Shown: in pieces, positions 40,264 through 52,017 of the stretch
Numbering within the stretch: position 1 is the first letter of the stretch
How the letters are laid out: each line of letters opens with the position of its first letter
NCBI GenBank assembly: GCA_002706765.1
Contig: PAJV01000022.1
Coordinates: 1 to 64,000 of the forward strand
DNA length: 64,000 nt
Source: Gimesia sp.
GTDB lineage: Bacteria; Planctomycetota; Planctomycetia; Planctomycetales; Planctomycetaceae
Direction of reading: 5' to 3'
Translations under genes and position numbers: made by a program
The notes under the pieces: model-generated
Seen by the model: the letters and a program-made list of their open reading frames with translations, nothing else
What the model was told of the DNA's origin: nothing
Database searches by the model: none

Positions 40264-42360
40264 ATGATGATCCATAAGAAAGTCCGTTATTTCAAGCAGC
40301 CGTTTCGGATGTTACTGTCATTGGCACTGGTGGGGGGGATCTGTAGCTCTCCCTTGATGGCGGCTGATAAATCATCAGATCGCAAGAACCGCAGTTCCAG
40401 TCGCAGCATTCAAAGCAGCAAAAAAAGTTCGTCCAGTTCCACTAAGCCCCAACGTATCGTACGTCCCCAGACCACTAAGCCCCAGATCACACGGCCCCAG
40501 TCCACACGGCTACCGTCTTCTTCTAACGCGAAGACTCTGCCACGACCTTCCGGCAAAAGCGTCAAAAACTTTTCAGGGAACATCAGCCCGAAAGTCAGCG
40601 ACAGGGGAAGCAGTCGGCCTTCGAAATCATTCAAAGCCATTCCACCGTCAACACGACCTGACTTCAAACTGCCTCAGTTTGGAAAGCAGAACAGCATCAA
40701 GCTGGATACCAAACATCTGAATCCGCGGATTCCTGATCGCAAAGTACCAGATCGTAAAGTGCCCGGTCGCAAAATACCAGATCTCAAAATTCCTGAGCAC
40801 AAAATCCCAGACAGAAAAATCCCGGATCGCAAGATTCCCGACCGAAAAGTTCCTGATCGTAAAATTCCGAACCTGAAGATTCCTGATCGAACAGTCGATC
40901 CTGGTAAGTTTGTGCCGAAACCAGGCAAGATCACAAGACCATCAAAGCCTGGTTTTGACAACAACGTCTTTAAACCCGGCAATGGAAAATTCGATCCGAA
41001 GCCTGGCAAAGGTAATCACGTCTTCAAGCCAGGAAATAACATTCAGAAACCAGGGAAAAAACCGAATCAGATCGGCAAGTTCCCCCAAGGAATTGATCTT
41101 GAGAAAGATTTTTCCAAAGGCAAACAGTTTGGCCCTTCCAAAAAGTGGCTCGGCAAAAATGGCGTGCCTTTGAACAAGGATCTCTTCAAAAATAAAAACA
41201 TCAAACCACTCAAGTTGAATCTCGATAAACAGCTGCAGGCTGGAAAATTCAACGCCCTGATCAACAGTAAGCACCACAAACAGTGGAATCTGAAGAAACA
41301 GTTTGAACTGCATAAGAAAGGTGACGTTGCCCGTCAGTTAAATCTGAATCACCACCTGCTCAAGCATGGTGGCTGGAGAAATCGAAGCCTGTTCGGCAAT
41401 ATGGCGAATTCCTTCACCCACACTCACTTCGGCAGCTGGTACGCCGGACCTGGCATGTACCCCAGCTATTGCTGGAGCCCACACTGGTCTGCCTGGGTGG
41501 ACTGGTGCTGGTGGGACTGGTGTCACCCCATCTGTGATCCCCGACCGATGATCTGTCGTCCCATCATCTGGGAACCTTGCGGCCCCTGGGTCTGGTATGA
41601 CTGTCCTGTCTGGCAGCCGCTGCCCATCGTGACCTGTGGTACCTGGGTGGATGTGGAACCGATCGTCATTGACAGTGGTCTTGACCTGCAGATGCTGGCA
41701 GTCCGTTTTGTTGACTCAGGACATGCGGAAGAAGAACTGGGACCGCGTTTCCGCGTCTGGTTCCGCAATAACAGTGTGGTTGATATCAACCAGCCCTTCA
41801 ATGTCATGCTGCTGGCTTCCAACTCACGGGAAGCAGTTGCCGGAGTGCCTGAAGCAGGGACCCGCGTTGACAATATCGCTGCAGGCCAGATCCAGACTGT
41901 TGATATTCGTCTGCCTTTCGCAGCCAGTACACTCTCGACGGATGCAGAAGGAAATCAGGTTCCCTTCGAACAGTTGCACGTGCTGATCGATTCCCACCGG
42001 GAAATTCCGGAAGCTTTTGAAGAGAACAACGGTTCTGTCGTGGCACGCGTTGATGTGCTGCCCGTCGATCCGGCCCTGTTTTCTGCAGATTCCGATGTCG
42101 TCTTCAGTGGCGGCATGGTCAATCTGGCCGGTGAAGGTCTGGGACCGGAACCAGGCAAAGTCCTGATGTCTCTGAATGGCATGAACTTCGAAGCAGAAAT
42201 TTATGGCTGGTACGACCTGGGTGTTCGCATCCAGCTGCCCGAACTGCCTCTGCTGGATGCAGCGGATGCTACCTTCGTGATCGTACGCGGCGATGGTGCG
42301 GCATCCAACCCGATCGATTTGCAACTGGCACCGCAGGTCGCTGCTGTCAGTGCTGAGTAA
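40264..42360 (+). CDS. Lysine/proline-repeat, Trp/Cys-rich secreted protein with CARDB and TIG-like domains
   Basis: A 698-residue exported protein with an unusual layout: signal peptide (to about MAADK), a Ser/Lys/Arg-rich basic stretch (35-130), eleven units of (I/V)PDRK (156-210), a Lys/Pro/Gly-rich stretch to about 380, then a block (391-466) with about 13 Trp and 8 Cys. The last 220 residues hold a CARDB-like domain (LDLQMLAVRFVDSGHAEEELG, VWFRNNSVVDINQPF) and a TIG-like domain (VFSGGMVNLAGEGLGPEPGKVLMS). The basic repeat could bind acidic polymers or the envelope. GGGGAGAGAG precedes the ATG. A double-hairpin terminator follows. Confidence 0.8.
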   Translation: MMIHKKVRYFKQPFRMLLSLALVGGICSSPLMAADKSSDRKNRSSSRSIQSSKKSSSSSTKPQRIVRPQTTKPQITRPQSTRLPSSSNAKTLPRPSGKSVKNFSGNISPKVSDRGSSRPSKSFKAIPPSTRPDFKLPQFGKQNSIKLDTKHLNPRIPDRKVPDRKVPGRKIPDLKIPEHKIPDRKIPDRKIPDRKVPDRKIPNLKIPDRTVDPGKFVPKPGKITRPSKPGFDNNVFKPGNGKFDPKPGKGNHVFKPGNNIQKPGKKPNQIGKFPQGIDLEKDFSKGKQFGPSKKWLGKNGVPLNKDLFKNKNIKPLKLNLDKQLQAGKFNALINSKHHKQWNLKKQFELHKKGDVARQLNLNHHLLKHGGWRNRSLFGNMANSFTHTHFGSWYAGPGMYPSYCWSPHWSAWVDWCWWDWCHPICDPRPMICRPIIWEPCGPWVWYDCPVWQPLPIVTCGTWVDVEPIVIDSGLDLQMLAVRFVDSGHAEEELGPRFRVWFRNNSVVDINQPFNVMLLASNSREAVAGVPEAGTRVDNIAAGQIQTVDIRLPFAASTLSTDAEGNQVPFEQLHVLIDSHREIPEAFEENNGSVVARVDVLPVDPALFSADSDVVFSGGMVNLAGEGLGPEPGKVLMSLNGMNFEAEIYGWYDLGVRIQLPELPLLDAADATFVIVRGDGAASNPIDLQLAPQVAAVSAE
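40729..40893 (+). repeat. Tandem 15-bp coding repeat, eleven units
   Basis: Encodes repeats of five residues (I/V)PDRK in the protein at 40264-42360. Units differ by single-base changes (R to L, H or G) and are not identical, so expansion is not recent. Confidence 0.9.
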
Positions 42361-44927: not shown

Positions 44928-46109
44928 CTATGTTTTGGGTGGTGTCACCGTTTCCGGTGCCGGACCAAGTGTCATCCCGGTATAAACTTCTGCAGGGATG
45001 ATGCTGGTTTCGGATGTTTCGATGGGGAGCGCGCCGCTGCGCATCTGGTTCAGTAATTCGACTGCACGATGTCCCAGCTGGGTTTCGTTTACGGTGACCG
45101 ATGCGATCTGCTGCTGGAGCACGCTGTGCCGAATCTTGTCTCCGACGCCGATCAGCGATATGTCTTCAGGCATCCGCAGTCCCATTCTTGTCAGATGCAG
45201 GTAAATCCGCTCCGCCATCGAGTCGAAGCTGGTGAAGATTGCCGTAGGACGCTCTGGTCGATTCAGGATTCGCTGCAGGGCCGCTTCGATTTCACCGTCC
45301 AGTTCCTGCATATCAATGACACCGTCCGCTCCGAAGTAGCAGTGCTCGGCTGCCAGTTCGCAGTTGACGTGGGCCAGGGCGTTGCGAAAGCCGTCCAGGT
45401 AGAGATCGGTTGTCTGCGTGCAGTGCGGCGCGAAAAAGGAAACGCGACGATGACCCCGTTTGACTAAGGCGTCTCCTGCCAGCACGCCGATCTGTTGAAA
45501 CGGGAGTCCCAGCAGTGGAGCCGTGATTCCTTCGACAGGACGGTGACACAGGACCACGGGGATTCCCGCTTTCTGTAACTGGCGGATCTGGTAGGCGGGA
45601 GTGGGGGGCGTACTGGCTGGTACAATCGCCACGCCCCCGACCTGATTGTCGATCAGCTGCAGAATCGCATTCCCCTGTTTATCAATATTGTTTCGCGTAC
45701 AGCAGACCAGCATCTGATTCTGGGACTGGCTGGATGATTCTTCAAAGCTGTGCTGCAGAGACGGGTAGTACCCTGAGAATACTTCCGGAATCACCAGAGC
45801 CAGGATATCCAGGCCGCTGGCCAGTCGCTGTCGCGCGTTTTCATGTACGAACGTGCCTTTGCCCTGGACACGGCTGACCAGGCCATCCCGTTCGAGTACC
45901 CCCATCGCCTGGCGAATGGTGCTGCGGGCGCTCTCAAACAGGGTAGCCAGCTGCTGTTCAGACGGGAGTGCCATGCCGGGCAAAAGGACTCCGTCCTGAA
46001 TCTGCTTTTTGAGATGATCCTGTATGCGTTCATACTTCGCGCGGGGTGAATTTAATTCACCATCATCGGGCAAAGTGGTTGTTTCAAGTAATCTGGTGGC
46101 TGATAACAC
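44928..46109 (-). CDS. AraR-like transcriptional regulator (GntR-type HTH with LacI-type sensor)
   Basis: The protein has a winged-helix GntR domain near its N-terminus (KYERIQDHLKKQIQDGVL, then LPSEQQLATLFESARSTIRQAM and RVQGKGTFV) fused to a periplasmic-binding-protein-like sugar sensor (LVIPEVFSGYYP, GVAIVPAS, VVLCHRPVEG, RGHRRVSFFAPH, ERPTAIFTSFDSMAERIY). This arrangement matches AraR of Bacillus subtilis. I place the start at the GTG 46109, not the TTG 46184, because the TTGACA at 46184-46179 looks like a -35 box. Two GTACGTAC octamers upstream match the AraR operator core, so autorepression is likely. The effector is unknown. Confidence 0.8.
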   Translation of the reverse strand: MLSATRLLETTTLPDDGELNSPRAKYERIQDHLKKQIQDGVLLPGMALPSEQQLATLFESARSTIRQAMGVLERDGLVSRVQGKGTFVHENARQRLASGLDILALVIPEVFSGYYPSLQHSFEESSSQSQNQMLVCCTRNNIDKQGNAILQLIDNQVGGVAIVPASTPPTPAYQIRQLQKAGIPVVLCHRPVEGITAPLLGLPFQQIGVLAGDALVKRGHRRVSFFAPHCTQTTDLYLDGFRNALAHVNCELAAEHCYFGADGVIDMQELDGEIEAALQRILNRPERPTAIFTSFDSMAERIYLHLTRMGLRMPEDISLIGVGDKIRHSVLQQQIASVTVNETQLGHRAVELLNQMRSGALPIETSETSIIPAEVYTGMTLGPAPETVTPPKT

Positions 46110-46145
46110 CTTGAAGGTATCCCTGAATTGAGATAGAAATGAAAG

Positions 46146-46153
46146 GTACGTAC
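46146..46153. promoter_or_regulatory. AraR-type operator core, site 1
   Basis: Palindromic GTACGTAC followed by AAT. It lies just downstream of the suggested -10 region of the regulator gene, so binding there would block its own transcription. The reported AraR consensus in Bacillus subtilis contains the same octamer. Confidence 0.6.
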
Positions 46154-46178
46154 AATATGGTACAAGTGGAACTCTGTC

Positions 46179-46184
46179 TGTCAA
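46179..46184 (-). promoter_or_regulatory. Possible -35 box of the AraR-like gene
   Basis: TTGACA on the minus strand, with an ACCATATT stretch 17-19 bases away as a weak -10. It coincides with the TTG that would extend the reading frame, which is why I prefer the later GTG start. Confidence 0.45.
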
Positions 46185-46655: not shown

Positions 46656-47108
46656 ATGCCTGACGATCTAGTCTTTATGATGGGGAATTTCGAAGCCCGA
46701 ATTCCCCAGGACCGTGTTTATAGTAAATCACACCTGTGGTTTCAGCAGACTGCTGACCACTGGCGCGTGGGCTTTACGGCCTACTCGGTGCGGTTGCTGC
46801 AGGATGTTTATTTCCTGGACTGGTTTATCGACCCGTTTACGAATGTGCAGGAAAAGCAGAAGATAGGAGAGATCGAAAGCTCGAAGGCGCTGTCCGATCT
46901 CTACGTTCCCGCCAGCGGCAGGGTTCTGGAATTTAATCAGGAATTATTAAACGACCCCTCTGGCATCAATCAGGCGGATAACTACGACAAAGGCTGGCTG
47001 TTTGAAATGGAGTCCGATGCGCAATGGTTGACGCCGGCGGAATATCTGCAAGTATTAGATGACGGCTGGGAACAGACCCAGCGGATTATTAAAGGACAAC
47101 TCAACTAA
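46656..47108 (+). CDS. GcvH-like lipoyl carrier protein
   Basis: A 150-residue protein of the glycine cleavage H type. The swinging-arm motif is GEIESSKALSDLYVPASGRV, with Lys77 in the position that receives lipoate; WRVGFTAYSVRLLQDVYFLDW precedes it and the C-terminal helix follows as in H protein. No glycine cleavage P, T or L gene is nearby. Instead it heads a run with a ferredoxin-like protein, a terpene cyclase and a prenyl synthase, so it probably serves another reaction; orphan GcvH-like proteins are known in sulfur oxidation and elsewhere. No clear Shine-Dalgarno before the ATG. Confidence 0.85.
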   Translation: MPDDLVFMMGNFEARIPQDRVYSKSHLWFQQTADHWRVGFTAYSVRLLQDVYFLDWFIDPFTNVQEKQKIGEIESSKALSDLYVPASGRVLEFNQELLNDPSGINQADNYDKGWLFEMESDAQWLTPAEYLQVLDDGWEQTQRIIKGQLN

Positions 47109-47159
47109 GACGGTCCAGCACAGTTGTGCTGCAGTTTCATGTTGAAAAAGGTTTACGGA

Positions 47160-48197
47160 ATGGCTGATAAAAAATTGACAGTGGTGATCTCGCAGGCGCA
47201 GGGAAAAAATCCCGCCAAACGTGACCTGGAAGAATCACTGGCAGCGGCGCTCCTGATGGAACCTGATGTCGAAGTTTCTCTGGTACCCCATCTGTACGAT
47301 CTTTCCGCCGATCATACCGGAACACTCTTCCTGCAGGCCTTGCGCGGCGATCTGGTGGTGCTTTCGTGGCTCTATCCCCGTGCGAATCACTGGATCATGG
47401 ATCGCCTGGGAGTCCGCGGCAGGGAAGGAATTGTTCTGCTTAAAGAAGAAGTGGATGAAGAGGAAGAAGAAGCGCAAAAGGAAAAGGCACCCCCCTTCGA
47501 AAATCCCGAACGGCAGAAATCGATTCCCGATCGCAAAATTTACTCCATCGATCTGAAAGTCAGTTCCAATACCGACGATTATCTGACGGAAATCAAGCGG
47601 ATCGCCAGTGACACGCAGGTTCAGACATTTCAACTGATGGATATGATTCAGCAGAGTCCGCGACCCGCACAGATCGAGAAATATCTCAAACCCCTGGACA
47701 TCATTCAGGGACAGAAAAATAATACCGCGAAAGCAGAAGTTCCGCAGCTGGAGCCCACCAAACGTCGCTGGTATCCGGTGATCGATTACGGCCTGTGTAC
47801 CAACTGTATGGAATGCATCGACTTCTGTCTGTTTGGCGTGTACGGCGTGGATCAGGGCGGGCAGATTCTGGTGGAAGAACAGGACAGCTGCAAAAAAGGC
47901 TGCCCGGCCTGCAGTCGCGTCTGTCCCGAGAATGCGATTATCTTTCCCGGTCATAAGACTCCGGGCATTGCCGGCGCCGATGGTGAAGTGGCCGGTCTGA
48001 AAATTGATCTCTCCAAACTGTTTGGTGCCCCCGATGCACTCGAGATGGCTGCCAGGGAAAGAGATGTCGAACTCGTCGCCGAAGGCCGCGATGCGGTCGG
48101 TATGTCCATTGGCATTCCCCAGCGAACAAAGATATCGAAAGAGACCAGCGATGAACTGGATGATCTGATCGACAGTCTCGATGCCCTCGATCTGTAA
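47160..48197 (+). CDS. Two-cluster ferredoxin-like protein
   Basis: A 345-residue soluble protein. Its end domain has two clusters of Cys: [11 protein letters not shown] (Cys213, 216, 219, 223) and [12 protein letters not shown] (Cys244, 248, 251, 255), with Pro after the last Cys, the pattern of two [4Fe-4S] clusters. The N-terminal 200 residues start [14 protein letters not shown] and include an acidic stretch ([11 protein letters not shown]) and are not recognised. The ATG at 47160 (AAGG nine bases upstream) is better than the earlier in-frame codon at 47124. It follows the GcvH-like gene by 51 bp and precedes the cyclase by 40 bp. It may pass electrons to or from a pathway enzyme. Confidence 0.85.
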
Positions 48198-48237
48198 GCA
48201 CCGAAAATAAATCTGACCCCGTAACTTAGAGACCTGT

Positions 48238-50100
48238 ATGAGTGAGACCATCTCCTGCCAGCGAGTTCAGGCAGCATACCAGAGATCACGCGCGGAATTA
48301 CTCACGTTCCGCAATCAGGCTGGCTACTGGACGGGAGAACTTTCCACTTCGGCACTCTCCACGGCAACCGCCGTGATGGCACTCGAGATGATCCGCCGCA
48401 AACGACCCGCCGCTGATACTTCTCTCGACACTCATATTAATAACGGTATCCGCTGGCTGGCCGAGCATCAGAATTCGGATGGGGGCTGGGGTGATACCGT
48501 CAAAAGTTTCAGTAATATCTCGACCAGCATGCTCTGTCATGCGGCCTTTCATGCTACGAAGAGTACCGACAGGTTCGTTGCGCATGTGGTCAACGCCCGG
48601 CAGTACATCGATCGCACCGGTGGTGTCGACGCGGTCGTGGCCCGTTATGGAAAAGATAAAACGTTCTCGGTTCCCATCCTCACCCATTGCGCGCTGGCCG
48701 GGCTGGTCAAATGGAAGACCATTCCCGCACTTCCGTTCGAGCTCGCCTGTCTGCCGGCGCGATTTTATAAAACGGTGCGGCTTCCGGTTGTCAGCTATGC
48801 CTTACCGGCTCTGATTGCCATCGGACAGGTCAGGCATCACTTCCGTAAACCGCGCAATCCGATCACGCGATTCATACGCAATCTGGCAGTCAAACGCAGT
48901 CTGAAAAAACTGATTTCCATCCAGCCCACCAACGGCGGCTTTCTGGAAGCCGCTCCCCTGACCAGTTTCGTGACGATGAGTCTGGCAGGCATGGGGTTGA
49001 CCGATCACCCTGTCGTGCAGAAAGGACTGCAGTTTCTGCTCGACTCCGTCAGACCCGACGGCAGCTGGCCCATCGATACCAATCTGGCGACCTGGACGAC
49101 GACTCTGTCAGTCAACGCGATTGAGGGGACACTCCCGGAGTTTGAGAAAACCCCCCTCCGCCAGTGGCTGCTGCAGCAGCAATACAAGGAACTGCATCCC
49201 TACACTTCGGCTGAACCCGGCGGCTGGGCCTGGACCGATCTGCCTGGCGGCGTACCCGATGCCGACGATACTCCCGGCGCCATCCTGGCATTATTGAATC
49301 TTCGAGCCGAAGAATCCGATCCGCAGCAGACAGCCGAGTTACAGATGGCTCTCCGGAACGGCGTCAAGTGGCTGCTTGACCTGCAGAACAGCAACGGGGG
49401 CTGGCCGACATTCTGTCGAGGCTGGGGCGCACTCCCCTTCGACCAGAGTGCCGCTGATATCTCGGCCCATGCGATTCGCGCCCTGCAGGCCTGGTTGAAA
49501 ACAGAACCACTGTCGGCAGAAGCTGCATTACGACTGCGGGCAGAACGCGCCATCAGGCGCTGCTTCCAGTATCTGGCGACAGTCCAGCGGCCCGATGGTT
49601 CGTGGCTCCCGCTCTGGTTCGGAAATCAACATATCGACAATGACGAAAATCCGGTTTATGGAACGGCGCGGGTCCTGGCTGCCTATGCCAGTGAAGCAGA
49701 ACGCGCTTCGAGTCAGGCAGAGCAGGGTATCCTGTTTCTGAAATCGGTCCAGAACCTCGATGGAGGCTGGGGCGGTGCCACGGGGGCTCCCTCCAGCGTG
49801 GAAGAAACGGCTCTGGCCGTCGATACGCTGCTGGCGCTGGGGTTAAGCCCGGAGGAACCTGTGGTGGCCCAGGGGCTGCACTGGCTGCTGGAATCGGTGG
49901 AGACCGGGACCTATACAGAAACAACGCCCATTGGCTTTTACTTCGCCAAACTCTGGTATTTCGAACAACTTTATCCAATTATCTTTACCGTTGCGGCGCT
50001 GCATCGTGCGGAAACCGTTTTGAAAAAATCTGTGGATGGCAATTTAAGATTGTCGCTTGAGGAGGAGGATTACCCTATAATGAGCGTCAAGGAAAAGTAG
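48238..50100 (+). CDS. Class II terpene cyclase, squalene-hopene cyclase-like
   Basis: A 620-residue alpha/alpha-barrel protein with at least six QW-type repeats: QNSDGGWGD (78-86), QPTNGGF (229), RPDGSWP (272), QNSNGGWP (383), RPDGSWLP (451) and QNLDGGWG (505). The catalytic acid motif DXDD is DADD at 341-344, within GGVPDADDTPGAIL, as in squalene-hopene and diterpene class II cyclases. It has no signal peptide. It is shorter than most SHC at the N-terminus, and its gene sits 81 bp before a prenyl diphosphate synthase gene, so its substrate may be a linear polyprenyl chain and not squalene. Substrate and product are inferred only. Confidence 0.85.
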   Translation: MSETISCQRVQAAYQRSRAELLTFRNQAGYWTGELSTSALSTATAVMALEMIRRKRPAADTSLDTHINNGIRWLAEHQNSDGGWGDTVKSFSNISTSMLCHAAFHATKSTDRFVAHVVNARQYIDRTGGVDAVVARYGKDKTFSVPILTHCALAGLVKWKTIPALPFELACLPARFYKTVRLPVVSYALPALIAIGQVRHHFRKPRNPITRFIRNLAVKRSLKKLISIQPTNGGFLEAAPLTSFVTMSLAGMGLTDHPVVQKGLQFLLDSVRPDGSWPIDTNLATWTTTLSVNAIEGTLPEFEKTPLRQWLLQQQYKELHPYTSAEPGGWAWTDLPGGVPDADDTPGAILALLNLRAEESDPQQTAELQMALRNGVKWLLDLQNSNGGWPTFCRGWGALPFDQSAADISAHAIRALQAWLKTEPLSAEAALRLRAERAIRRCFQYLATVQRPDGSWLPLWFGNQHIDNDENPVYGTARVLAAYASEAERASSQAEQGILFLKSVQNLDGGWGGATGAPSSVEETALAVDTLLALGLSPEEPVVAQGLHWLLESVETGTYTETTPIGFYFAKLWYFEQLYPIIFTVAALHRAETVLKKSVDGNLRLSLEEEDYPIMSVKEK

Positions 50101-50181
50101 ATCCCTCCCGTTTCCAAACCAATTTGAATTCAATCCTTCAACAATCGCTCGATTGAGTTATTAACCATAGAGGAGTGTTCC

Positions 50182-52017
50182 GTGTCCATTGCACCTTTAG
50201 ACCAGCAAAGTTCTGAAGACAAAATTGTACCCGGCTCAAGCAAAGCTGAAGTACACTCTTCCGAAGACAAAAAACCGGTCAAAAGAAAACGCCAGAGTAC
50301 CAGCCATCTCAAAGCGGTACCGGAAACCTCTGCGCTGCGCGAAGAAATGAAGGCCGAAGCGGAAAAGTTCGTCGAGAAGCTCGACTGTGCCAATCCCTTC
50401 AATAAATCAGCGCTGGAAGCCTGGTCGCGCGAATTACTGGAGCAGATGAATCAGCCCGAAAAGTTTCTGGGCTTCATGATGGTTCTGATCGGGAATTTTT
50501 TCTGGAAACGACAGTTCCTGGCAATTCCTTTCGAGCGCCGCCTGCTGTTACTTCCACACTGCCTGAAACACGCCGAAGGCTGTCCCGCGGAATACGATGA
50601 GTTCGGCCTCGACTGTGAAAAATGCGGCGCCTGTTCGATTGCCGACTACAAAGTCAGGGCAGAACAACTGGGTTACAAAGTCCTCGTTGCCGAAGGCTCT
50701 CCCGTCGTCCTCAAAATCATTGTCGGCGGTTACGTGGATGGCATCCTGGGAGTTGCCTGCCTGAACGTCCTGGAAAAGTCGATCGATAAAGTGTTGATCG
50801 CCGGCGTTCCCTCTTACGCGGTTCCCCTGCATTCCGGCGACTGCAAAAATACCAAGATGGACGAACCCTGGATCTGGGAAGTTCTGGAAGAGTACCGTCC
50901 GCTGGATCAGCCGCTGACCCGCAGCTATCTGCCTACCATGCGGGCCGCGAATGCACTCTTTGAAGATAACTTCGATCAGATTCTGCCTCCGCTCCGTACC
51001 AAAACAGAAGCTGCCGCCCGGACTCCCCTGGGTAAAACCGAAGCCATCTCTTACGACTGGCTCAAGCATGGCGGAAAACGCTTCCGTCCTTTTATCACAC
51101 TGGCCGCCTACGATGCCCTCATCAAGGCTCAGCAGTCTGATGAAACTGCAGAGACCACCTATCCGCTGGGTGTGCAGAAAGCCGCCATGGCCATTGAAGT
51201 TTTCCACAAGGCTTCGCTGATTCACGATGACATCGAAGACGATGACCAGTACCGTTACGGTCGCGAAACCCTGCATCGTCAGCATGGCACGGGCATGGCC
51301 ATTAACATCGGCGACTACCTGATTGGCATCGGCTATCGCCTGCTCAATGAAGCGCGGGCAGATATCGGAGCGGAAGCCGCCTCCGACCTGATCGAAAAAA
51401 TGTCCGCCGCCCATATCAAACTCTGTGAAGGGCAGGGGGCCGAAATGGCCTGGCAGGAAAGTGAGACCTTTGAACTGGCACCACTGGACGCCTTGCAGAT
51501 TTATGCTCTCAAAACCTCACCTGCTTTCGAAGCGGCCCTGTACGCCGGCATTCGCATGACCGGTTCGGTGGGCAAGTATGAAGCTTTGATCTCCTCGTTC
51601 TCGCGTCACATTGGCGTCGGTTTTCAGATTCTGAATGACCTCAAAGACTGGCAGGGAGACGACAACAACAAACTGATCTCCGGACAGGACGCGCTGGCCA
51701 TGCGACCGACGCTGCTGCTGGCGCTGGCACTTCAGACCGCCGACGATCAGCAGAAAGCGGACCTCAAAGACATTCTGCAGGGGCACTCCAGCGATGGGGC
51801 CCGCATCGACCGTCTGCGTGAGATCTATCAGGACTGCGACGTCTTCACCAAAGCCGAAGCCCTGGTCGATAAATCACGGGCTCGTGCCGAGGAACTGGCA
51901 GAAAACGTCGAGAACGAAGACTTCAAACAACTGCTGATGTTCTTCTGCGATACCGTACTGGCCGAAGAAACTCCCGAAGCCAAACCCGAACCCCAGGTGC
52001 TGATGCCGACTGCCTGA
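50182..52017 (+). CDS. DUF116-polyprenyl diphosphate synthase fusion
   Basis: A 611-residue protein in two parts. Residues about 60-240 are DUF116: [29 protein letters not shown] (Cys127, 134, 145, 148, 151) and GVACLNVL (Cys193), probably an Fe-S or zinc site. Residues about 260-600 are a trans-isoprenyl diphosphate synthase with GGKRFRP (297-303), first Asp-rich motif DDIEDDD (349-355), a KTS near 444 and second motif NDLKD (485-489), where Asn replaces the first Asp. The GTG start has AGGAG upstream. I know of no described protein with this pairing. It follows the cyclase by 81 bp. Confidence 0.88.

Follow-up and report, generated by a model that had tools for sequence, protein, structure and literature searches.

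Class II cyclisation and radical SAM chemistry are already known to meet in the hopanoid pathway, where squalene-hopene cyclase acts alongside HpnH, a radical SAM enzyme whose substrate is a cyclic isoprenoid. Longer chains are cyclised by the tetraprenyl-beta-curcumene (sesquarterpene) cyclases, class II enzymes that act on a C35 chain supplied by a long-chain prenyl synthase, and tetraether (macrocyclic archaeol) synthase is a radical SAM enzyme that works on isoprenoid lipids. A different setting, sHdr sulfur oxidation, uses the lipoate-binding protein LbpA (eLife 2018, PMC6067878, a paper whose main text is silent on planctomycetes, terpenes, isoprenoids and polyprenyl compounds).

The locus described here lies in a 64,000-nucleotide stretch of planctomycete DNA, the whole of which we call the window. 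Four genes, all on the + strand and separated by gaps of 51, 40 and 81 bp, form a tandem. The first (46656..47108) encodes a GcvH-like predicted lipoyl carrier of 150 amino acids (PF01597, 1.5e-19); the second (47160..48197, beginning with the ATG at 47160) a two-[4Fe-4S] ferredoxin-like protein of 345 amino acids that is recognised by Fer4 models; the third (48238..50100) a class II terpene cyclase of 620 amino acids (PF13243, SQHop_cyclase_C, 7.6e-40; PF13249, SQHop_cyclase_N, 4.8e-29); and the fourth (50182..52017, with a GTG start and gaggag upstream of it) a DUF116-polyprenyl diphosphate synthase fusion, in which both Pfam domains (PF01976, 3.8e-37; PF00348, 3.8e-43) occur in one protein of 611 amino acids.

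We think it probable that these four genes belong to a pathway, so far undescribed, to a cyclised long-chain polyprenoid that includes a radical SAM step. A preliminary description of the locus had already proposed a polyprenoid pathway. The genes do form one conserved unit, and chain-making plus ring-making remains the best reading of it, but the gene set first described was incomplete, as it lacked three members that lie outside the window: a radical SAM enzyme, a CobW-type GTPase and a second toroid protein of the gene set (hereafter TOR). The core of the pathway likely consists of the DUF116-prenyl synthase fusion, the class II cyclase, TOR, the ferredoxin-like protein and the radical SAM enzyme (of a B12 type in some lineages), and the lipoyl carrier and the CobW-type GTPase are additions at many loci in Planctomycetota and at some other loci. 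The enzyme superfamilies are known; their combination is new, as the product probably is too. Among the open-access PMC papers listed, we found none on the gene set or on the function of DUF116.

Within the fusion, the polyprenyl synthetase domain spans residues 290–546 (PF00348; 51049..51819, + strand), and its first Asp-rich motif can be read as DDIED at 51226..51240 (+ strand). This motif takes the form HDDxxD in all 109 of the fusions scoring above 440 bits, and in fusion synthase domains Ala-Ser occupies positions −5 and −4 relative to it; small residues at these positions permit chains longer than C15. The second Asp-rich motif is DDxxD in many aligned rows and NDxxD in the clade to which the window belongs, a substitution that we count against the pathway reading, and the search pattern missed it in 15 of the 109. 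The DUF116 domain (50437..50883, + strand) scores 127.6 bits with PF01976, for which the gathering cut-off is 25 bits, and each of its cysteines 127, 134, 145, 148, 151, 193 and 221 is conserved in 101–104 of 105 aligned fusions. Its AlphaFold2 model has a mean pLDDT of 86.7, and comparison of the domain with solved folds gave no match at E≤1e-3, which we likewise weigh against the pathway. The pattern of conserved cysteines leads us to suppose that DUF116 may hold an Fe-S or other metal centre. The window's genome has one DUF116 gene, and among 14 control genomes the family was present in two, both of them methanogens (M. jannaschii and M. acetivorans).

The DxDD motif of the cyclase, read as DADD at 49258..49269 (+ strand) as the preliminary description had it, belongs to a pattern, D.DD[TS], that is present in all 85 family members scoring above 400 bits. 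The solved structure nearest to the window cyclase is squalene-hopene cyclase (2.2e-21), and both the cyclase and the synthase fall in superfamilies that serve hopanoid, carotenoid and quinone-tail synthesis, which raises the possibility that the locus encodes a modified version of one of those pathways, with a divergent squalene-hopene cyclase and an ordinary quinone-chain synthase. We regard this explanation as very improbable. The window cyclase reaches 128 bits with the hopene cyclase model TIGR01507, far below its cut-off of 431.1 bits, whereas a separate cyclase elsewhere in the same genome passes at 701 bits, and the window genes scanned included no further gene for hopanoids or carotenoids. 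Unlike the hopanoid pathway, the set also includes TOR, a chain-length synthase of its own in fused form and, often, a lipoyl carrier. The likeness to tetraprenyl-beta-curcumene cyclases, which lies in class II cyclisation of the product of a long-chain prenyl synthase, does not extend to a close match, in that the window cyclase matches 8paj, the one such PDB entry among the matches listed, weakly (6.6e-6).

The best solved matches of TOR are the beta subunits of Rab geranylgeranyltransferase (1.6e-17), which would fit a bacterial prenylation system: the other genes would produce a cyclised prenyl donor, and TOR would attach its prenyl group to a small molecule or a protein. The zinc ligands of protein prenyltransferase beta subunits are Asp, Cys and His, and in 16 aligned rows of TOR no Cys or His is conserved throughout, or even nearly so. 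Where the Asp-x-Cys and His zinc motifs align with TOR, it has Asp and Tyr, with Tyr at the Cys and His positions, though these are alignments of repeats and the equivalence of the positions is unsure. We therefore judge prenylation to be quite improbable. In the radical SAM enzyme, the CxxxCxxC motif is invariant in 18 rows (and present in 50 of 51 in a second count), and three more cysteines are invariant in the 18. Its best profile matches are SkfB (3.2e-21) and cytosylglucuronate decarboxylase (5.5e-17), with the similarity lying in the radical SAM part, and both are better than the weak match to tetraether synthase (7tol, 1.3e-8).

The GcvH-like protein scores 76.2 bits with the GcvH equivalog TIGR00527, under its cut-off of 115.85 bits. 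Its Lys77 (codon 46884..46886, + strand) had been placed correctly beforehand and is invariant in 18 of 18 aligned rows, which include the other GcvH of the window's genome, and the lipoyl-lysine context E[SG].KA is present in 43 of 44 relatives. As had been remarked at the outset, glycine cleavage partners are missing, with none among the eight window genes scanned with Pfam. The locus also differs from sHdr systems, in that the proteins scanned gave no match above cut-off to the HdrA, HdrB or HdrC families and the partners here are isoprenoid enzymes.

The ferredoxin-like protein owes its name to residues 204–263 (47769..47948, + strand), where several Fer4 models of Pfam hit (at approximately residues 204–260) and where eight cysteines, in line with the two clusters first proposed, are invariant in 33 of 33 aligned rows. 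Its N-terminal domain (residues ~1–93, + strand) probably corresponds to a small gene that stands alone in deep relatives; by sequence, the resemblance is weak for the window protein (16% identity to the small-gene product of locus L072) and clearer through fused relatives such as that of L100 (37%). From this protein and the lipoyl carrier the preliminary description had suggested a reductive or sulfur-related step. The sulfur-related step found no support; a cysteine desulfurase formed a neighbour cluster at no more than 10 loci. Rather than serving an unspecified reduction, the ferredoxin-like protein would more plausibly feed electrons to the radical SAM enzyme.

We examined 15 further stretches around ferredoxin genes that lie away from the fusion or on another contig. 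GcvH adjoins the ferredoxin gene in eight of them (G137, G024, G194, G291, G266, G121, G283 and G105) and lies in the same run, with a CobW gene and the small gene between, in two (G188 and G035); it was not seen in the other five (G274, G167, G126, G098 and G010). The pair thus moves together in most of these genomes, and the predicted lipoyl protein, which was not found at the Bacteroidota-type loci described below, looks like an accessory tied to the ferredoxin.

From the gene content, motifs, co-localisation and co-occurrence that we observed, we infer each of the following chemical steps as well as the product. The synthase domain would first make an all-trans prenyl diphosphate longer than C15, and the DxDD cyclase would then protonate this chain and close rings, its substrate presumably not being squalene, which is used by the separate hopene cyclase. 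TOR, a barrel like that of prenyltransferase beta subunits without the conserved zinc ligands, might bind the chain or hand it on, after which the ferredoxin-fed radical SAM enzyme would modify an unactivated carbon. The Cys-rich DUF116 domain, with its putative Fe-S or metal centre, may perform a redox step on the nascent chain, and in the planctomycete version the predicted lipoyl protein could donate electrons or carry a group.

The window's genome does encode the missing partners elsewhere, each as a strong match: radical SAM on contig C36 (667 bits), TOR on contig C49 (338 bits) and the CobW-type GTPase on contig C55 (500 bits). Relatives have all three in the operon; here they are dispersed.

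To compare the distribution of these families, we ran profile searches for each of them in 294 planctomycete genomes, with cut-offs of E≤1e-30 for the fusion and TOR, 1e-20 for the ferredoxin, 1e-60 for the cyclase and 1e-140 for the radical SAM enzyme, the last being a threshold for strong matches that we chose post hoc where scores drop from 470 to 259 bits with nothing in between. Seventy genomes had the fusion. All 59 genomes with the radical SAM enzyme were among these 70 (none among the other 224), as were 68 of the 69 with the ferredoxin, 63 of the 64 with TOR and 63 of the 65 with the cyclase, so that each partner family occurred in only 0–2 of the 224 genomes without the fusion. Fisher tests for co-occurrence with the fusion across the 294 genomes gave p values from 4e-51 to 3e-63, uncorrected for relatedness. 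The fusion, cyclase and ferredoxin are present in one copy in nearly all genomes that carry them (genomes of ~2–12 Mb). Distances between sequences correlate for all 21 pairs of seven gene families (r 0.47–0.96), and for each pair none of 500 permutations reached the observed correlation, a result that is expected of co-inherited genes and equally of shared ancestry alone.

A further 31 genomes matched the radical SAM profile only below the threshold: three of these have the fusion (G075, G098 and G219), and the other 28, among the 224 without it, carry weaker relatives (172–259 bits) that we count against the pathway. Of the 11 fusion genomes that lack the main radical SAM enzyme, seven (G041, G107, G114, G145, G219, G284 and G098) have a B12-type radical SAM gene adjoining pathway genes; neither type was found in G036 or G087, the B12 type being sought in stretches near pathway genes, and G028 and G075 had no radical SAM match at E≤1e-140 in the search of the 294 genomes. 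G087 also gave no match to the ferredoxin, TOR or cyclase profiles, and the one fusion gene it has is a paralogue with three cysteines in the part of DUF116 that usually carries seven; a second fusion copy in G105 has none in that part. Two genomes have pathway genes although they gave no fusion match: in G010 the cyclase, a B12-type radical SAM gene and the ferredoxin share a contig that ends inside the cyclase, and in G279 the cyclase is the sole pathway gene. Altogether, the fusion, a radical SAM enzyme of either type, TOR and the cyclase were all present in 58 of the 72 genomes that have any of them, or 59 when the B12-type gene of G098 is counted. This completeness figure of 58 out of 72 we counted against the pathway reading.

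Gene neighbourhoods point in the same direction as presence and absence. From 59 of the 70 planctomycete genomes with the fusion we extracted the surroundings of that gene, up to 20 kb at a time, which gave 60 neighbourhoods (two from G105), many of them truncated where a contig stops; the set takes in every fusion genome but 11, namely the window's own and ten more. The cyclase is near the fusion in 48 of the 60, always on the same strand, and the ferredoxin in 45 (44 on the same strand); TOR lies on the strand of the fusion in 39, the GcvH-like gene in 36 and the B12-type radical SAM gene in six; and the radical SAM gene is near the fusion in 29 (25 on the same strand) and the CobW-type GTPase in 26 (25 on the same strand), all counts resting on family HMMs that were built from the same 60 loci. 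In locus L070, to take one example from the deep relatives, the order is GcvH, CobW-type GTPase, small gene, ferredoxin, radical SAM, fusion, TOR, cyclase and cysteine desulfurase, and in G105, a member of the window's family, radical SAM, CobW, GcvH, ferredoxin, TOR, fusion and cyclase are found within ~15.5 kb. In the window's genus, a GntR-type regulator adjoins the cluster in all six loci, and in four genomes assembled as single contigs TOR and the radical SAM gene lie 67–324 kb from the fusion. That these two genes are outside the fusion operon in the four congeners we count against the pathway, and such partial dispersal of partners within the genus would fit an adjacency due to chance or housekeeping, with no common function. 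The concordant presence and absence of the genes and the gene runs shared across several phyla contradict that explanation, which we consider exceedingly improbable.

The question of whether the four genes are neighbours in related genomes, which the preliminary description had left to be checked, can thus be answered: their association persists across Planctomycetota and extends past that phylum. Scanning named genomes returned at least 80 loci, of which we analysed 50 (L093–L142), leaving out L143–L172, whose matches were to the synthase part only; the named loci partly overlap the planctomycete neighbourhoods (L095/G174, L101/G036 and L135/G061). Among the matches listed, the 50 fusion loci are labelled Planctomycetota, Verrucomicrobiota, Lentisphaerota, Kiritimatiellota, Bacteroidota and Zipacnadia. 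A same-strand run of ferredoxin, radical SAM, fusion, TOR and cyclase is present in 12 of 13 loci of a Bacteroidota type (11 labelled Bacteroidota, Planctomycetes bacterium syqfu and one uncultured), and the thirteenth is cut by contig ends. Named organisms include Draconibacterium aestuarii (L125), with the full core, and two Rhodopirellula strains (L130 and L131), with at least the fusion and cyclase. A CobW-type GTPase occurs at one of the 13 Bacteroidota-type loci and a GcvH-like gene at none of them, a scarcity that we set against the pathway reading, and because these loci bear the core, the lipoyl arm looks to be outside the shared core chemistry. In a tree of the fusion (quick method, midpoint root), both halves contain Planctomycetota, and two changes are required to account for Bacteroidota, which indicates a history that includes old duplication, transfer or loss.

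Beside the core in six of the 50 named loci (L105, L110, L112, L122, L134 and L136) is a module of a small Fe-S protein (n9) and a membrane Fe-S protein (n10), which we take to be NapG-like and NapH-like, together with PQQ-type propellers; in L110, Pfam recognises the module copies by Fer4 models, Fer4_5 and PQQ_2. These neighbours, and a core that is itself rich in redox proteins, would fit a product that serves not as a structural lipid but as a redox cofactor soluble in lipid, used by the adjacent membrane or periplasmic electron-transfer module. This alternative overlaps with our best reading in its chemistry and differs from it in the role of the product. However, the module was not seen in the flanks of four loci with a full core and readable flanks (L114, L115, L121 and L125), and PQQ-type propeller genes recur at many loci, which makes their adjacency to the core weak evidence. 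We consider such a role for the product unlikely.

More broadly, and still as a pathway to a cyclised polyprenoid, we tentatively suggest, as a reading somewhat less likely than not, that the pathway is widespread, spanning Planctomycetota, Verrucomicrobiota, Lentisphaerota, Bacteroidota and Zipacnadia, and that it makes a new class of cyclic polyprenoid finished by a radical SAM enzyme that acts on the cyclised chain, with DUF116 as an Fe-S domain joined to the prenyl synthase, a lipoyl arm dedicated to carrying electrons or a group in planctomycetes and a product that may be a membrane redox cofactor. If the pathway is as we propose, DUF116 would gain a testable biochemical setting and a GcvH-type protein would be placed in isoprenoid metabolism. 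It would also predict that environmental and rumen bacteria, isolates included, make a new lipid or lipid cofactor, and the cyclic polyprenoids made by this pathway could matter as sediment biomarkers.

The core pathway comprises the fusion of a DUF116 module to a polyprenyl synthase, the cyclase, the second toroid protein TOR, the ferredoxin-like protein and a radical SAM enzyme. At six loci (L105, L110, L112, L122, L134 and L136), the core is adjoined by a module in which PQQ-type propellers are combined with a pair of Fe-S proteins that we take to be NapG/NapH-like; in most of the six the module contains an additional propeller-like protein. A B12-type radical SAM enzyme adjoins the fusion gene or its partners at 12 loci (L060, L062, L064, L077, L083, L090, L100, L103, L107, L134, L198 and L199), where it mostly occupies the position of the usual radical SAM gene. 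The gene set is also present on the L102 contig, which is labelled Candidatus Kuenenia stuttgartiensis; in the fusion tree L102 falls together with L099, adjacent to loci labelled Verrucomicrobiota, and the label may be mistaken.

Despite matching the fusion profile, paralogues at L053 (11887–13734; 702 bits) and L054 (11785–13701; 628 bits) have lost the DUF116 cysteines in part or entirely. Genome G069 carries a second, fragmentary copy (C1:3046871–3047080), comprising 70 C-terminal residues at 84% identity, ~1.7 Mb away from the full-length gene. The window's own genome also encodes a true squalene-hopene cyclase (contig C76, L184 9851–12130), which scored 701 bits, above the cut-off, and is followed on the same strand by an ORF whose product presumably resembles biotin synthase.

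Positions 40264–42360 of the window encode a Lys/Pro-rich protein of 698 amino acids. The gene contains a tandem repeat of 15/30 bp units, present in 9.3 and 5.4 copies, that encodes a series of DRKIP-type units.

Divergent from the cluster, on the minus strand, is a gene for a GntR-type regulator with a periplasmic-binding-protein-like domain (44928–46184). When neighbours were clustered across 61 loci, this regulator was found beside the operon at none of the loci outside the window's genus and at all six within it, making it a candidate regulator of the operon in that genus.
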